DNA of 33,906 nucleotides from a bacterium (GTDB lineage: Bacteria > Patescibacteriota > Minisyncoccia > Phycocordibacterales > Phycocordibacteraceae), in NCBI GenBank assembly GCA_021789225.1, contig JAJYJQ010000001.1:23564-57469 (forward strand). Reading direction: 5' to 3'. Positions 2,056 to 33,906 of the stretch are shown one piece after another. Each line of letters opens with the position of its first letter. Position 1 is the first letter of the stretch. A model generated the notes under the pieces. The model ran no database searches. It was not told where the DNA came from and saw only the letters and a program-made list of their open reading frames with translations. Both the position numbers and the translations under genes were made by a program.

Positions 2056-2183
2056 AGTCGTGTGAAAAAGAAGATGATTAATATTGTCGACCCACTCGCG
2101 CGCGAAAAATTTTTTCATGCACGAATGTCCTGTGTGTATTATTACGCGCAAAAAAATTTTTTGTGTGCATGCATGCACGTATG

Positions 2184-2192
2184 TGTGGATAA
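2184..2192 (-). promoter_or_regulatory. Perfect DnaA-box 9-mer TTATCCACA
   Basis: Plus strand tgtggataa = minus TTATCCACA (E. coli consensus). A second site matching TTWTNCACA (TTTTTCACA) lies at 2061-2069 and a one-mismatch site (TAATACACA) at 2133-2141, all on the minus strand. Confidence 0.5.
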
Positions 2193-2199
2193 CTTGCAT

Positions 2200-2245
2200 G
2201 CATCACGCGCAAAAATTTTTCGTGAAAAATTTTTGCGCGTGATGC
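2200..2245. repeat. 21-bp perfect inverted repeat (hairpin/cruciform) with A5T5 core
   Basis: gCATCACGCGCAAAAATTTTT-CGTG-AAAAATTTTTGCGCGTGATGc; both arms exactly complementary; immediately downstream of the murB stop and upstream of the histone-like gene. Confidence 0.9.
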
Positions 2246-2259
2246 GCAGCACTCATTCA

Positions 2260-3273
2260 CTATCGCGCGATGAGCGTTTCGACTTCGCGTTCGATCTCGA
2301 TGTTCGTCGCTTCGTACACACGCGCACGCACTTCATGCACGCACGCTTCGATGTCTGCTTCTGTCGCGCCGGGAAGCGTCGTGAGTATGAGCGGCTGCTT
2401 CTCATGCAAACGCACCGGCCCGCACGTGAACCCGCGCATGCCGAGCGCATGGTCGAGTATCCATGCGAGCGGCACCTTCACTCCCTCAGAAGATTCAAAG
2501 CCGACCAGCCCAGGAAAACGCACGCGCAGCGCCGCATATGCTTCAGACGTGATGACGGGATTCTTAAAAAAAGAGCCTGCGCTGCCGATGCCTTTCGCGG
2601 GCATCTTTTCGGCACGAATCGTGCGTACCGCCTCCGCGATTTCTCGTGGCGTGGTGAGCGAGACGCCCCGCTCCCGTGCGAGCGCGAGGTCTTTGTAGGC
2701 GATGTTGGGCGTACCGGTGTGCGAGAGCTTGAGCGCGACACGCGTGACCACCCACGCATCCTCGCGTTTGAACACACTCTCGCGGTAGCCGAACGCCGCG
2801 TCGCGCGCGCTGATGCGTACCACCTCCCCGCTCGCTCGCTCAACTGCTTCTGCCCACGCGAACACACTCGCGAACTCGACGCCGTATGCACCGATATTCT
2901 GTACGGGCGCAGCGCCCGCCGTGCCGGGGATGCTCGCAAGGTTTTCGATGCCCCAGAGCTGTCGCGCTGACGCTTCGAGGACAACTGCATCCCACGCCAC
3001 GCCCGCGCCGACTACGAGGAGCGCATCGTCTCTTTCTTCGACATGCTCGATACCCGGAATCGCGATACGCAGCACGAACCCATCCACGCCCGCGTCCGGC
3101 ACGAGCGTGTTTGAGCCGCCACCGAGCACAGCGACGCCAAGACCGCGGCGCTTGGCTTCGCCAAGCGCCGCGATGACTTCATCTACCGACTTCGCTTCCG
3201 AGAAGAATCGCGCCGCACCGCCGACACCCAGTGTCGTGAGCGGGGCGAGCAAAACGTTCTCTTGCACACTCAT
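2260..3273 (-). CDS. murB: UDP-N-acetylenolpyruvoylglucosamine reductase (MurB)
   Basis: 337 aa; FAD-binding region LTTLGVGGAARFF..., GGGSNTLV, GTAGAAPVQNIGAYGVE, GSAGSFFKNPV. Confidence 0.96.
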   Translation of the reverse strand: MSVQENVLLAPLTTLGVGGAARFFSEAKSVDEVIAALGEAKRRGLGVAVLGGGSNTLVPDAGVDGFVLRIAIPGIEHVEERDDALLVVGAGVAWDAVVLEASARQLWGIENLASIPGTAGAAPVQNIGAYGVEFASVFAWAEAVERASGEVVRISARDAAFGYRESVFKREDAWVVTRVALKLSHTGTPNIAYKDLALARERGVSLTTPREIAEAVRTIRAEKMPAKGIGSAGSFFKNPVITSEAYAALRVRFPGLVGFESSEGVKVPLAWILDHALGMRGFTCGPVRLHEKQPLILTTLPGATEADIEACVHEVRARVYEATNIEIEREVETLIAR

Positions 3274-5548: not shown

Positions 5549-5827
5549 CTAATCGTCACTCTTTAGGATATCCTCGTGCATTTCTTTAAATGAGGTGTAC
5601 CGCTTCCCGTACTTGAGCGCATGCTCCGCCTCCTTGAGAAGCCGCAACTTCTTTTCGCGCGGCCAGTAGTCGGCGCTCAGCACCGGAAACGGGATACGCT
5701 TCTCGGCCGCCACTTGCGTGAGGTAAAGCTTTACCCCCGACGACATATCGAGTCCCATCGAGCGAAAGGCCTTCTGCGCAGCGTCTTTCGTCTTTTTATC
5801 TATGCGAATCTGCAGCGTCGTATTCAT
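5549..5827 (-). CDS. RelB/DinJ-family type II antitoxin (orphan)
   Basis: MNTTLQIRIDKKTKDAAQKAFRSMGLDMSSGVKLYLTQVAAEKRIPF...: ribbon-helix-helix RelB/DinJ pattern. Start moved from the 146-aa track ORF to the ATG at 5827, supported by the promoter position. Confidence 0.88.
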   Translation of the reverse strand: MNTTLQIRIDKKTKDAAQKAFRSMGLDMSSGVKLYLTQVAAEKRIPFPVLSADYWPREKKLRLLKEAEHALKYGKRYTSFKEMHEDILKSDD

Positions 5828-5834
5828 ACGCACC

Positions 5835-5863
5835 ATGCTACACCCGCGCCGCCAGCCTGTCAA
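5835..5863 (-). promoter_or_regulatory. Sigma70-type promoter TTGACA-N17-TAGCAT of relB/dinJ
   Basis: -35 at 5858-5863, -10 at 5835-5840, 17-nt spacer; ATG begins 7 nt after the -10. 12-bp palindrome TTGTCATGACAA (5868-5879) just upstream of the -35. Confidence 0.65.
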
Positions 5864-5887
5864 TACATTGTCATGACAAACTAAAAC

Positions 5888-5912
5888 CCGCGCCGGCCTG
5901 CGGCCGGCGCGG
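5888..5912. repeat. GC-rich 11-bp inverted repeat in relB/flippase divergent intergenic region
   Basis: CCGCGCCGGCC-TGC-GGCCGGCGCGG; shares CCGCGCCGGCCTGCG with 5532-5546 on the other side of relB. Confidence 0.7.
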
Positions 5913-5983
5913 CTTTGCATCCACTCTCCCTCTCTCGCGGTTATAAATGGTACGATAGCGACAATAAGCCGCCTACCGCCACT

Positions 5984-7252
5984 ATGCAATCTCTCAAATC
6001 CCGCCTCTACCGCCTCCTGCGCTGGAGCGAAAAGTACACCAAGACCGACATGGTGTATCTCGCATCGGGAGGATTCTGGTCAACCGCCGCGCAGGTCGTC
6101 TCATCACTCACCGTCTTCGGATTTGCCATCCTCGTCGCGCACGTCCTCCCCAAAGCCGTGTACGGCGACTACAAATACATCCTCGCGACCGTCGCACTCC
6201 TCTCCTCCTTCTCGCTCACCGGCATCGGCACCGCTGTCTTCCAGTCGGTCGCAAGCGGCTTCGACGGCGCGCTCCGCGAAGGCTTCTGGCAAAACCTCCG
6301 CTGGAGCGTGCTCATATTTATCGGCGCGTTCGTGCTCGCCGCGTACTATTTCGCCCAGGGCAACACGTCATTCGCCTTCGGCATACTCATTGGAGGATCA
6401 CTCTCGCCACTCCTCACGAGTGCAAACATCATCAGCGCATTCCTGAATGCAAAAAAGGACTTCCGCCGCTCCGCGCTGTACATCGGCATTATCGAGACTC
6501 TGCTCTCCGTCGGCGCGCTCGCCATCGCCGTCCTGTTCACGCATAATCCATTCATCCTCGCGGCGGTGTACTTCCTCGGCAACACGCTCGCGACGCTCTG
6601 GATCTATCGCCGCATCCTGCGCTTCTACAAGCCCGATCCTGCCAGGACCGACCCCGGCATGATGACCTACGCGAAGCACCTCTCGCTCATGGGCGTCCTC
6701 TCCACCATCGCCGGTAACATCGACCAAGTGCTTCTCTTCCATTTCGTCGGCCCCGCCGAGCTTGCCATCTACAACTTCGCCGTCGCGATTCCCGACCAGA
6801 CCAAAGGGCCGCTCAAGACGCTGAACACGATGATGCAGGCGAAATTCGCAGCACGCCCCGACGAAGAGATCCGTGCAGGCATGCGCAGCAAGATGTTCTG
6901 GCTCTTCATCTCGAGCATCATTTTCATAATCCTGTATGTGCTCCTTGCACCGTTTATCTACGGGTTCTTCTTCCCCAACTACGCGGATGCCGTACTCTAT
7001 TCCCAGATTTATGCGATTTCCATGCTCAGTATCGCGTTCGCACCAGCGGGATCCTATCTTGCCGCAAAGAAGAAGGTGCGCGAACAATACATCGTCAACA
7101 TCGGCGCTTCCGTAATCCAGATCGCGATGATGGCAATCGGTGTGATTTTCTGGGGGCTCCTCGGCCTTGTCGTTGCACGTGTCATCATTAAGATAGCTGG
7201 CAACTATCTCGTGCACTTCATCTACTCGATGTCCGTGCCCGCAAAGGCATAA
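5984..7252 (+). CDS. Oligosaccharide flippase family protein (Wzx-like, MOP superfamily)
   Basis: MQSLKSRLYRLLRWSEKYTKTDMVYLASGGFWSTAAQVVSSLTVFGFAILVAHVLPKAVYGDYKYILA...; polytopic, MOP-type N-terminus; extended -10-like TGGTACGAT at 5948-5956. Confidence 0.9.
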   Translation: MQSLKSRLYRLLRWSEKYTKTDMVYLASGGFWSTAAQVVSSLTVFGFAILVAHVLPKAVYGDYKYILATVALLSSFSLTGIGTAVFQSVASGFDGALREGFWQNLRWSVLIFIGAFVLAAYYFAQGNTSFAFGILIGGSLSPLLTSANIISAFLNAKKDFRRSALYIGIIETLLSVGALAIAVLFTHNPFILAAVYFLGNTLATLWIYRRILRFYKPDPARTDPGMMTYAKHLSLMGVLSTIAGNIDQVLLFHFVGPAELAIYNFAVAIPDQTKGPLKTLNTMMQAKFAARPDEEIRAGMRSKMFWLFISSIIFIILYVLLAPFIYGFFFPNYADAVLYSQIYAISMLSIAFAPAGSYLAAKKKVREQYIVNIGASVIQIAMMAIGVIFWGLLGLVVARVIIKIAGNYLVHFIYSMSVPAKA

Positions 7253-29476: not shown

Positions 29477-32400
29477 TCAAAATAAATTCAGTAAGGTGGT
29501 CCAGAGTTTATGCAATCCATTATAGACGGTTTCTCCAGCCCGCTTGAAGAAAGATTGCTTAGAAACTACTGACGCCACCGATGCGGGCTCGAAGGTTGAT
29601 GGAGCATATGCTTCGTCGCGTACTGTCTGCGCTTGGGCATGCATGGAGAGAGTGGGTTTGTATGGTTTCTGTGTCGGCGTTTTCACCGCGAGCTTCTTCT
29701 TTGGCTGGTTTGCGCGCGTTAGGGTCGCTGCATCCTTGCGCGCAGTCGAGGTCGTCGCGACAGATTCTGGCAGCGTTGTTGTGGCGGTCGAGCTTGCGAC
29801 CTGCCGTGCCTCAATGGGCTGCGGTAATGGGTTAGGCGTGAGAGGAGCTCCGCCCACTGACACGGGAAGGCTTCCAGACACCGGCGCCGCTTGTGCTTCT
29901 GGCTTGGTTTCTTCCGGAGCGGGTGGCGCATACGGCACGGTCTCCCCTGTTTTGGGCATGATGGTGATGATGTTTTTCCCGTCGCCCTCTTCGTCGACTG
30001 TGAGCGCGGAGGCGGTATCGACGCCGTCAGTGATGGTGAGTTGTGCGAGCGTGGTGTCGGTCGTCGGCACGTCTGCAATAGAAGTCTCTGACGTGACGGT
30101 ATCGCCTGAGCGCTCCTGCATGCTTAGCGTGAAGCTCCCGTCCGTCTGCCCGTGCATGGTAAGTGTATAGGCGCTCCCTTGCGGGACGGTGACGTACTTC
30201 ACTTCCCCGAATTGGCCATAGGACGAGTCGGGGATGTTCTCTGTCATAGAGCCATCGGTGGCGAGGCCGGTCGTGTTGCCGGATGCGTCGGTGAGTTGGA
30301 GGGTGAGAGGCGAATGGAGGAAGAAGGTGAGTTTCTTACTTTCGACAAGCGCTGCAGGTTGCGAGGCATAGATGTGATTTGGAACAGCTGCTCCTGTTTT
30401 GTTCCGAAGGAGGTTACTTATAAAATCTCTGAGCTGCGGAATTTCAAACAAATCGGCATGCCGCGTCGCTGCGTGTGATTCTTTGTTATAGGAATGTAAA
30501 TCCACCCAATACCGCCTCACATTCGTGCTGCTCGCTATCTGCAGCGCGCTCGGGACGGCGACGGTGCCGTCGCCGTCTTCCACTATGATCGGCTCGTACG
30601 TTCCTGAAGACCGGAACGCAGAGAGTACATCAGTCGGCGCTTGTGTATAGAATCTGATACCGGCCACCGTGTCTATCCCCCACCCAGCGATTTCGCTCAC
30701 CTGTATACCGGCGGGTGGCGTCCAGAAATCAAGCGAGCCATGTGTGCGGTTTGCATAGTCGATAAGGTCCGGGTTCGCGATATCAGCCGTGCTAAGGTCG
30801 TCGTCATCCGGGTCCTCACGACCACCATCATTGGCAAGGAGGAAATCGTCGAGCGCAGTACGATTTGCAATGGTGCTCCCGTACGCGGCTTCTTCTTTCT
30901 TGTATGCTTTCCCTTCAAACTGTACGAGCGGGTGCGCAGCGTCCGCCATCGTGCTTTCGATGTAGTATTCGGACGGCAGCAGATGATAGGTCATCGGCGA
31001 GTTGTGCGCGAAGGTACGTGCCGCTGCGTTCGAGATAATCGGGATGCCTGCTTTGTAAATACCTGCGTCAAAGCCCACCAGGAGCGAGGCGAGCGCGGAC
31101 GGCGTTCCGCTTTGCGGTGAGGCGACAAGTATCACTTTGTCCACGAGTTTTGCAGCGTCAGCGTCGCCCAACTTGTCCAAAAGCGCTTTGGTCACGAGGC
31201 CGCCGTTTGAGTGCGCAATGATGGTCACCTTCCCTGTTTGCGAGGTGGCGGCAAGCTGGCGGAGCGTCTGCTCGATGTAGGGTGTGCTGGTGGATTCTTC
31301 GTAGTAGATGCGGTCGCCATGCTGTGTACCGTTTGCGAGCAGGTCGTCGAGCGAGAGTCGCCAGTCGTACGCGACGGGTTTCCAGTCGTTGATCGTGCCA
31401 TCGTGTTTGAGGCCATCGAGCTCGTCGAGAAGTGATTTGTAGAGATTGCTTCCGCCGACGGTGTCGATGACAGCGCTCTCTTTTGTGTAGATATCTGAGC
31501 ATGCGCTGTTGCCGGACGCGTCGAGCGCGAGTTCTGACATATTGTCGTCACCTTCTCCGGTCAAGATGCTCCACAGGCCAGACAGTCCGGAGTCGATCGG
31601 ATCCCACAGCTTCTCTTCCTCCTTTTTCCCGCAGCCGGTGCCTTCGTACAGGCGGCTGCCCTCAATCCCCGGCAGGAAGAGGACGTTGTCGTATTTTGGC
31701 GCGGGCGGCGGGGCGAAGGGGTCGTTCGTGAGCCAGGGAGAGAAGAGGACGTGCGCAGAGATTTCAGGGCCGGTGCCCTCAGGGTTCGTGTCGGCATTGT
31801 GCGGGCCGGATGCACTGCCCCACCAGTTGCTGGTCGCATCTGCGTCAGTGGTGCCGTCGTTTTGCACGCCTGTCTCGGCACGGGCGATGCTGTTTCCGTG
31901 TGCGGTGAGCGAGCCGCCGGTGAGATACGCGAAGCGCGTGCTGGTGGCGAATCGCGAACCGGTGATCGTCGTGGTGCCGGCGGTCTGCATGAGGTCGTTG
32001 TACGTGGCGTGTTCAAACGTACTGTCGGCGACCGACACGGTGCCGCCTTGGTTGAGAATCGCACCAGCGCAGGCGTCTTGCGGCGCGTCGTAGCTGGCGG
32101 CGCACGGATTGAGTAGGTAGCCGCCGTATGGGTCGCCGGCGTAGCGCAGGAGCGTGTGCGTGACAGAGACCGTGCTGCCCGGCTCGGCGACGATGCCGAC
32201 AAAGACCTCAAGCGGCTGTGCCGGATCATACTGAGAGACGCCGGCCTTTGCTTCCTCGGCATGGTTCGTGTCGCCCGCAACGGTATCGTCTGCGGCAGAA
32301 GTGAGCGTCGTGGTCGCACCGCCCACCGCGCCGACGACGAGCGTGCCGAACACGTGTATAGGCGCGTATGCTTTGACGATGGCGCCTGGCGCGATGGTGA

Positions 32401-33283
32401 GTGTCGCGCCGGCGTTCACGTCTACGTCAGAATCTGGCACGTTCACGAACGGTGGCGCGAGGAAGGTCGTGTCACTCGCCAGGCTTTCCCAATCGAGAAG
32501 AGTTGGCTCCGTATTGTCGCCGCCGTCGTGCACGTCCGAGTTCCATAACACGACAGGGTCCGTGATTGTCATACCGGAGAGCGTCACAGATGCGTTCATT
32601 GCAAAAATCGTCTCACGTACGCCGAAGCTGCTGTGCGCTATGGTCGCCGCGCCTCCTTTTAGCATGAGCGCGGTCTTGGTGTGGAGATCGTGCGCGCTGG
32701 AGCGAGAAAACGTGAGCGTGCCGTCGGAGGCGAGGCCGCCGCTAAAGGAGGTGTGCTCGATGGTCGAATCGGTGAGAGAAAGCGTGCCGTGGTTTTCGAT
32801 AAGGCCGTCGAGTGGCATGACGAGGTCCCCGCCGCCTCCGCTCTGAGGTGCACCGCCATAGCGCAGGTCAGCATGCGAAAGTGTCGCTATGGCGCCTGCG
32901 GCGATGATGAGTTGGTTCCAGGAAGCGTTGTCGGCACTGTCGCTGATGTTTGTGAAGGTGACCGGTGCGGCGCCGGTACCTTGCGCGACGAGCGTGCCTG
33001 CGATGGTGATGCTCGTGCTCGGCGCGACTTCCACGACCACGCCCGGCTCGATGGTGAGCGTCGCGCCCTCGGCGATAGTTGTATCTGCCGATACGACATA
33101 CGGGCTCTCGCTCGTCGCCCAGGTCGTGTCGCTGTCGATGTTTGCTGGCACGTCCGTCGCGGCGTGCGTTGCCACGGGCAGCGCGAACAAAAATACAGAA
33201 ATGAGAAAAGCCGACGCTGGGCCTCGAGGGCAAACTCTGTATACGCGCTTTCCCGGAGAACGTATGGCGAGCCCGTCTGTCAC
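29477..33283 (-). CDS. Secreted multidomain protein: right-handed beta-helix region + alpha/beta-hydrolase (lipase/LCAT-like) domain + Pro/Ala/Thr-rich tail
   Basis: Signal-peptide-like ASAFLISVFLFALPVATHAA; repeated GTLVAQGTGAAPVTFTN / NWWGSASGPHNADTNPEGTG beta-helix motifs; NVLFLPGIEGSRLYE and VTIIAHSNGGLVTKALLD nucleophile elbow. GTG at 33283 is preferred; the track start (TTG, 33388) overlaps the upstream GT4. Confidence 0.85.
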   Translation of the reverse strand: MTDGLAIRSPGKRVYRVCPRGPASAFLISVFLFALPVATHAATDVPANIDSDTTWATSESPYVVSADTTIAEGATLTIEPGVVVEVAPSTSITIAGTLVAQGTGAAPVTFTNISDSADNASWNQLIIAAGAIATLSHADLRYGGAPQSGGGGDLVMPLDGLIENHGTLSLTDSTIEHTSFSGGLASDGTLTFSRSSAHDLHTKTALMLKGGAATIAHSSFGVRETIFAMNASVTLSGMTITDPVVLWNSDVHDGGDNTEPTLLDWESLASDTTFLAPPFVNVPDSDVDVNAGATLTIAPGAIVKAYAPIHVFGTLVVGAVGGATTTLTSAADDTVAGDTNHAEEAKAGVSQYDPAQPLEVFVGIVAEPGSTVSVTHTLLRYAGDPYGGYLLNPCAASYDAPQDACAGAILNQGGTVSVADSTFEHATYNDLMQTAGTTTITGSRFATSTRFAYLTGGSLTAHGNSIARAETGVQNDGTTDADATSNWWGSASGPHNADTNPEGTGPEISAHVLFSPWLTNDPFAPPPAPKYDNVLFLPGIEGSRLYEGTGCGKKEEEKLWDPIDSGLSGLWSILTGEGDDNMSELALDASGNSACSDIYTKESAVIDTVGGSNLYKSLLDELDGLKHDGTINDWKPVAYDWRLSLDDLLANGTQHGDRIYYEESTSTPYIEQTLRQLAATSQTGKVTIIAHSNGGLVTKALLDKLGDADAAKLVDKVILVASPQSGTPSALASLLVGFDAGIYKAGIPIISNAAARTFAHNSPMTYHLLPSEYYIESTMADAAHPLVQFEGKAYKKEEAAYGSTIANRTALDDFLLANDGGREDPDDDDLSTADIANPDLIDYANRTHGSLDFWTPPAGIQVSEIAGWGIDTVAGIRFYTQAPTDVLSAFRSSGTYEPIIVEDGDGTVAVPSALQIASSTNVRRYWVDLHSYNKESHAATRHADLFEIPQLRDFISNLLRNKTGAAVPNHIYASQPAALVESKKLTFFLHSPLTLQLTDASGNTTGLATDGSMTENIPDSSYGQFGEVKYVTVPQGSAYTLTMHGQTDGSFTLSMQERSGDTVTSETSIADVPTTDTTLAQLTITDGVDTASALTVDEEGDGKNIITIMPKTGETVPYAPPAPEETKPEAQAAPVSGSLPVSVGGAPLTPNPLPQPIEARQVASSTATTTLPESVATTSTARKDAATLTRANQPKKKLAVKTPTQKPYKPTLSMHAQAQTVRDEAYAPSTFEPASVASVVSKQSFFKRAGETVYNGLHKLWTTLLNLF

Positions 33284-33333
33284 GTGCGTAGATAGGATAG
33301 CACATAACGCGCGACGACGCTGTGCGTCGCGTC

Positions 33334-33906
33334 TCAGCCAAGCAGCCGGTCGAAGAGCGCCTTCATGCTCGCGGCGATGAGATCCCAATCATACTGCTCA
33401 GATACAAGCTTCTTTGCGGTCGCGACGACACGCGCTACCTGCTCGGGATGCGCGATGATGTCCTCTACGGCCGCGGCGATCTGCTCCGGAGAGTCCTTGT
33501 CCACCGCCCAGCCAGTCGGCTCTTTGTCTGGGTTCCTCTTCGCATCAAAAAGGAAATCAGCGATGCCGCCCTCCTGCGTCGCGATGACCGGCAGCCCAGC
33601 CGCCATCGCCTCAATAAACGAATTCCCCATCCCTTCCGAACGCGACGGGCGAATGAAGATGTCGCAACTCTTGAGCGCGCTCGGCATCTCGTCATGCCCG
33701 ATCTGCCCCATGAAATGAACACGCGCACTCACACTTTGCTCCTCTGCGAGCCGCCGGAGCGAGGCTTCATCAGGACCGATGCCGTAGACGACAAAATGTA
33801 CACGCTCGGGCAGACGTGCAAGTGCGCGGATTACATCGTCCACCGCGTTCTTGTGCACGAGGCGCGACGTAGTGACAAGCGCCACGTCGTCCGAAGCAAG
33901 CCCGAG
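33334..33906 (-). CDS. Glycosyltransferase family 4, C-terminal domain (truncated by window edge)
   Basis: ALVTTSRLVHKNAVDDVIRALARLPERVHFVVYGIGPDE...CDIFIRPSRSEGMGNSFIEAMAAGLPVIATQEGGIADFL. Confidence 0.92.
   Translation of the reverse strand, partial: LGLASDDVALVTTSRLVHKNAVDDVIRALARLPERVHFVVYGIGPDEASLRRLAEEQSVSARVHFMGQIGHDEMPSALKSCDIFIRPSRSEGMGNSFIEAMAAGLPVIATQEGGIADFLFDAKRNPDKEPTGWAVDKDSPEQIAAAVEDIIAHPEQVARVVATAKKLVSEQYDWDLIAASMKALFDRLLG

Follow-up and report, generated by a model that had tools for sequence, protein, structure and literature searches.

In E. coli, DnaA acts as a transcription factor, and autoregulatory mRNA leaders of the ribosomal-protein type are also known. In Borrelia burgdorferi, DnaA activates dnaX-ebfC, and EbfC binds that 5' UTR both as DNA and as RNA (PMC9879097), and DnaA is also known as a transcription factor in B. 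subtilis (PMC4447404). The Borrelia system is the closest precedent for the one proposed here: DnaA acts close to the 5' end of the gene for a nucleoid protein, which also binds the long 5' UTR as RNA. However, in Borrelia DnaA binds within the 5' UTR, partly at sites that do not resemble known DnaA boxes; EbfC is the nucleoid protein there, and its transcript also includes dnaX. At the present locus the box is canonical and lies at about -57, the protein is tiny and H1-like, the leader has a covarying hairpin, and dnaX is absent. The DnaA targets of B. subtilis and E. coli share promoter-linked DnaA boxes with this locus, but most of them serve replication or metabolism and carry several boxes. 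To our knowledge, no order-wide DnaA box at a fixed spacing has been reported on a histone-like gene. As with leaders of the ribosomal-protein type, the gene product is a short basic protein and its own 5' leader forms a conserved hairpin, present once per genome; unlike those leaders, this one is matched by no Rfam family, and it is a candidate binding site for the protein. The Lys/Arg/Ala/Thr-rich, H1-tail-like composition of the protein is common to Chlamydia Hc1/Hc2 (NCBIfam NF038052), although the histone-like protein is much shorter. The Hc1/Hc2 profile gave a non-significant E-value of 0.72 for one relative and no match for the window protein, a test limited by low complexity.

The window, that is, the whole 33,906-nt stretch of DNA that was analysed, corresponds to C48:23564-57469 of an assembly that comprises 51 contigs and 779 kb. 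The histone-like Lys/Arg-rich gene occupies positions 1900-2055 on the minus strand and was recognised by its open reading frame and its composition. It encodes 51 aa beginning MAPKKRTAKKVAKKAVRKTTKK and has orthologues of roughly 16-90 aa. No Pfam or NCBIfam model matched the 51-aa protein, whose low complexity limits the profile test. Upstream lies murB (2260-3273, minus strand), identified by the Pfam domains FAD_binding_4 and MurB_C. On the 3' side of the histone-like gene is a classical bidirectional terminator, AAAAACCTCCCGAGGGGGAGGTTTTT (1859-1884), unlike the palindrome that follows murB. Elsewhere in the window, positions 5549-5989 encode a protein with a RelB-type antitoxin domain in otherwise glycan-synthesis surroundings, and the product of positions 29477-33388 is 1303 aa long and has an LCAT / alpha-beta hydrolase domain.

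The region between the two genes contains a perfect DnaA box, TTATCCACA, at 2184-2192 on the minus strand. This box, which the original prediction overlooked, agrees with the consensus TTATNCACA, lies near a promoter, and is the sole match in the window with up to one mismatch. It is located 40 nt upstream of a -10 hexamer, AATAAT (2138-2143, minus strand), which reads GATAAT or AATAAT in relatives and whose ATAAT core is near-invariant (alignments A1 and A2). A probable weak -35, ACACAA (2161-2166, minus strand), precedes the -10 by about 17 nt, as judged from alignment A2 and the loci of the order; its form is CACA-A in the genus and ATTGTN in other families, and a promoter scan found no canonical sigma-70 match in the region. 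Judging from spacing only (about 7 nt after the -10), transcription would start at approximately position 2131 on the minus strand, which would place the centre of the box at about -57. The strongest observation is the spacing: in 50 of 51 loci the end of the box lies 38-41 nt from the start of the -10, and 49 of the 51 have a perfect box. Of 93 genus genomes, 72 contain the combination TTATCCACA-N39-42-ATAAT, which the reversed control matched once. The DnaA of this genome (contig C5) keeps the canonical box-reading motif GGRDHTTV, and the dnaA-dnaN region contains the same perfect box together with several near-boxes. In addition, the single-contig genome of one genus-mate (G031) has a second, divergent DnaA-like match (C1:946647-948005, 28% identity) besides its main dnaA at 565-567 kb.

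Other perfect TTATCCACA sites of this genome (L010 1272; L013 1501; L012 1501; L004 1501) lie, by eye, near rpoB-, rpsJ-, surface-protein- and yebC-like genes. A second perfect DnaA box on the window's own contig (L015, C48, 18968-19050) has an A5T5 palindrome with GCATGC arms at a distance of 20 bp, so that both non-coding A5T5 sites of the genome adjoin a DnaA box. This second site is upstream of a 1546-aa gene whose product has a helix-turn-helix-like start and TNAT-type repeats, and it had no match in 58 relatives.

Of 59 relatives searched by BLAST with the intergenic region, 15 gave a match, and all of these belong to the same genus. Comparison with relatives supported the proposal that a regulatory site accompanies the Lys-rich protein gene: region and gene are conserved together across the genus and the order, even where the neighbouring gene is not murB. 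The conserved unit, however, is the promoter and leader of the histone gene and not an array of AnTn tracts. Read in the histone sense, its elements occur in a fixed order: first a palindrome that may be absent, then (A)GTTATCCACA, followed by a T-rich stretch, CACA with an A/T junction, GCGCG and (G/A)ATAAT; after the -10 follow a TAGAAC-like sequence, the hairpin, GGGTCGAC, about 30 nt, and the ATG of a Lys/Arg-rich protein of 16-90 aa. In one relative (L027, in G027:C1) the gene upstream of the unit is not murB, and in another (L028, in G025) murB is about 4 kb away, which indicates that the unit is tied to the histone gene. The same arrangement is present downstream of murB in Parcubacteria group bacterium RYN_378 (JAQBQR010000023.1, L071), whose stretch is base for base like that of the genus-mate G021. 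This match places the window in the Patescibacteria/CPR, near the RYN_378 contig.

A promoter-only pattern, GTTATCCACA-N39-42-ATAAT-N25-55-GGTCG, was run without reference to any gene and matched 28 of the 197 genomes of the order, compared to none for the control. Twenty-six of the 30 places matched were just before a tiny Lys/Arg-rich open reading frame, spread over 17 families, while the remaining four preceded two pilin-like and two channel-like genes (by eye). Since no match was found in 363 genomes outside the order (a phylum-wide sample), the combination of box and promoter is specific both to histone-like genes and to the order. The 169 order genomes without an exact match should be read in the light of the strictness of the pattern, as close variants, among them TTCTCCACA and TTTTCCACA, occur in some of them. 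Some histone-like reading frames behind the conserved promoter comprise only 16-20 aa, nearly all Lys, Arg or Ala (L265, L267, L275, L276).

The transcribed part of the unit contains a 5'-leader RNA hairpin at 2093-2127 (minus strand; arms 2127-2119 and 2101-2093), recognised by covariation, and directly 3' of it the leader motif GGGTCGAC (2086-2093, minus strand; alignment A1). Alignment A1 comprises 26 genus leaders, over which an 11-pair stem was scored. Within it, GGGTCGA was invariant (26 of 26), and the pattern search shows GGTCG to be kept across the order. In the stem, 92.5% of cells were paired and nine of the 11 pairs had changed on both sides, so that base pairs that covary, as in a structured cis-regulatory mRNA leader, are present. 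The covariation score was 0.526, compared to 0.373 in shuffles, none of 500 of which reached the observed value, and sliding the stem by one column reduced pairing to about 20%. Stem cells contained 57 G-U but only 8 A-C combinations in the histone sense, a bias indicating that the fold forms on the histone-sense strand and that the hairpin acts as RNA. The fold in this species had a z-score of -2.87, and of the 93 genus genomes 72 were matched by a covariance model of the hairpin, almost all of them at a single place. In other families the hairpin occurs unevenly (z < -2 in 8 of 24 cases), while GGTCG persists. No Rfam model reached its gathering score, the only matches being sub-threshold ones of AT hairpins in microRNA models. 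Pairing of GGGUCGA with bases before the AUG occurs in a few species including this one and is not above shuffles overall (mean z -0.29). The leader represents a previously unlisted RNA leader family.

The original prediction centred on four AnTn tracts between the histone-like gene and murB, and all four are present: A5T6 at 2105-2115, A7T6 at 2150-2162, and A5T5 at 2211-2220 and 2225-2234. The window has four copies of AAAAATTTTT where 0.02 were expected from shuffles, and the whole 779-kb assembly has only six, five of them on the window's contig and the sixth (C36:18039) within a coding frame. The 14-bp palindrome GTGCATGCATGCAC was also located as claimed (2165-2178); relatives do not share it in the interval from the box to the -35 (alignment A2). 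A perfect inverted repeat had been described with arms of 21 bp; it is real and 100% complementary, although its arms measure 22 bp (2200-2221 and 2224-2245, separated by 2 nt). The resulting 46-bp palindrome (2200-2245, no strand assigned) contains tracts 3 and 4, is located 7 bp upstream of the DnaA box and is lineage-specific, a comparably strong fold upstream of the box being found in 14 of 51 relatives, or about a quarter. As expected from the original prediction, the hairpin does not recur in this genome as a generic REP element or terminator; GCGCAAAAATTTTT has elsewhere a single match, with one mismatch. At L032, L033, L040, L070, L228, L230, L243 and L244, upstream palindromes of differing sequence contain one half of the DnaA box (ATAACTT/AAGTTAT), as if an inverted half-site had repeatedly been created upstream of the histone promoter. 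The 46-bp palindrome is a lineage-specific addition, possibly a hairpin at the 3' end of murB or part of a DnaA complex.

There are several potential explanations for this arrangement other than a DnaA-responsive promoter. The idea of a single architectural array, in which the AnTn tracts would form a DNA site, architectural or autoregulatory, for the histone-like protein itself, draws on their strong over-representation here and on the recurrence of an A-run followed by a T-run in the promoter spacer of 18 of 26 relatives, where tract 2 (2150-2162, no strand assigned) is located. However, the exact sequence of the tracts is not kept in relatives, and outside the spacer neither is their position; tract 1 is the tip of the leader hairpin, and thus part of an RNA structure, while tracts 3 and 4 belong to a palindrome missing from most relatives. 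Because the tracts fall into hairpin tip, spacer and upstream palindrome, the supposed array is three different things rather than one. We know of no sequence-specific binding by H1-like tails, and we consider this explanation quite unlikely. The notion that the 46-bp palindrome is nothing but a terminator or 3'-protective hairpin of murB, unrelated to the histone gene, deserves more weight, though we would place it a little below even odds: the palindrome comes directly after the murB stop codon, and several relatives show a hairpin or T-run there, but in several relatives a palindrome arm takes in the ATAACTT half of the DnaA box, and the classical terminator of the locus stands after the histone gene. 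The suggested role in murB 3'-end formation is therefore retained as a candidate, with the qualification that the hairpin is not universal and lacks a U-run after its stem; an intrinsic terminator would have a GC-rich stem followed by a T-run, but when 2200-2245 is read in the murB sense no T-run comes after the complete 22-bp stem, and the terminator scan reported a short inner stem of 5 bp only.

Two further explanations concern the box itself. The box might mark all or part of the chromosomal replication origin, or a DnaA-titration locus, given that it adjoins AT-rich palindromes and that the second site with a box and an AnTn tract is 6.8 kb away on the same contig. Nevertheless, the site has one box (at most one mismatch) and not the cluster typical of an oriC, the box cluster of this genome is in the dnaA-dnaN region on another contig, and the fixed spacing of 38-41 nt to the -10 hexamer fits a promoter. 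In G031 the site, at 386 kb, is far from dnaA (566 kb) and from the cumulative GC-skew minimum (about 560-697 kb), an approximate value since 20% of that record is masked. An oriC is ruled out by the number of boxes, the skew and the dnaA-dnaN box cluster, and the explanation as a whole is very improbable. It is also conceivable, if unlikely, that TTATCCACA is read here by a transcription factor other than DnaA, as it occurs 13 times in the genome (two for the reversed control), in some cases near rpoB-like and ribosomal-protein-like genes (by eye). Against this, the sequence is exactly the classical DnaA box, with flanks common to the dnaA-dnaN region, and the host DnaA keeps the canonical reading motif.

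We therefore favour, with a probability of roughly 60%, the view that a tiny histone-like gene has its promoter and 5' leader in this region, the promoter responding to DnaA and, with a regulatory leader, coupling histone synthesis to replication. A box centred near -57 is in the position of a class I activator, and a T-rich stretch beside it could act as an UP element. Together with the preserved GGRDHTTV motif, this position suggests that DnaA regulates the histone-like gene directly and probably activates it. DnaA would bind the box just upstream of the T-rich stretch and the AT-rich promoter spacer and adjust transcription from there, most likely as a class I activator, so that histone supply would track replication and growth. 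The transcript would start a few bases before the conserved hairpin, followed by GGGUCGA, and a 5' hairpin so close to the transcript end fits either protection of the mRNA or feedback by the basic product; the leader may thus stabilise the mRNA, or may let the Lys/Arg-rich protein or another factor limit its own synthesis. The comparisons show the conserved order and spacing of the elements, the sequence of the DnaA box, the covariation of the RNA and the association with the histone gene; that DnaA binds here, whether it activates or represses, where transcription starts and what the leader does are inferred from sequence features. It is also important to note four contrary points: there is a single strong box, while many DnaA-regulated promoters have several; the -35 is weak, with no canonical promoter in the scan; the leader hairpin is uneven beyond the genus; and 169 of the 197 order genomes lack the exact pattern. 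More speculatively, and on balance doubtful, DnaA may directly control the histone-like protein of one order of ultra-small (Patescibacteria-like) bacteria through a box at a single fixed position while the protein binds its own leader hairpin, giving a two-level circuit that would set chromatin dose to chromosome number.

A search of open-licence papers found none relevant on DnaA boxes, histones, nucleoid proteins or lysine-rich proteins in Patescibacteria or Parcubacteria, and hardly anything is known about regulation and nucleoid organisation in these uncultured, genome-reduced bacteria. A unit kept over many families would provide a concrete, testable link between replication initiation and DNA packaging in this group, and it serves as a marker for tiny histone-like genes that are missed by sequence profiles.
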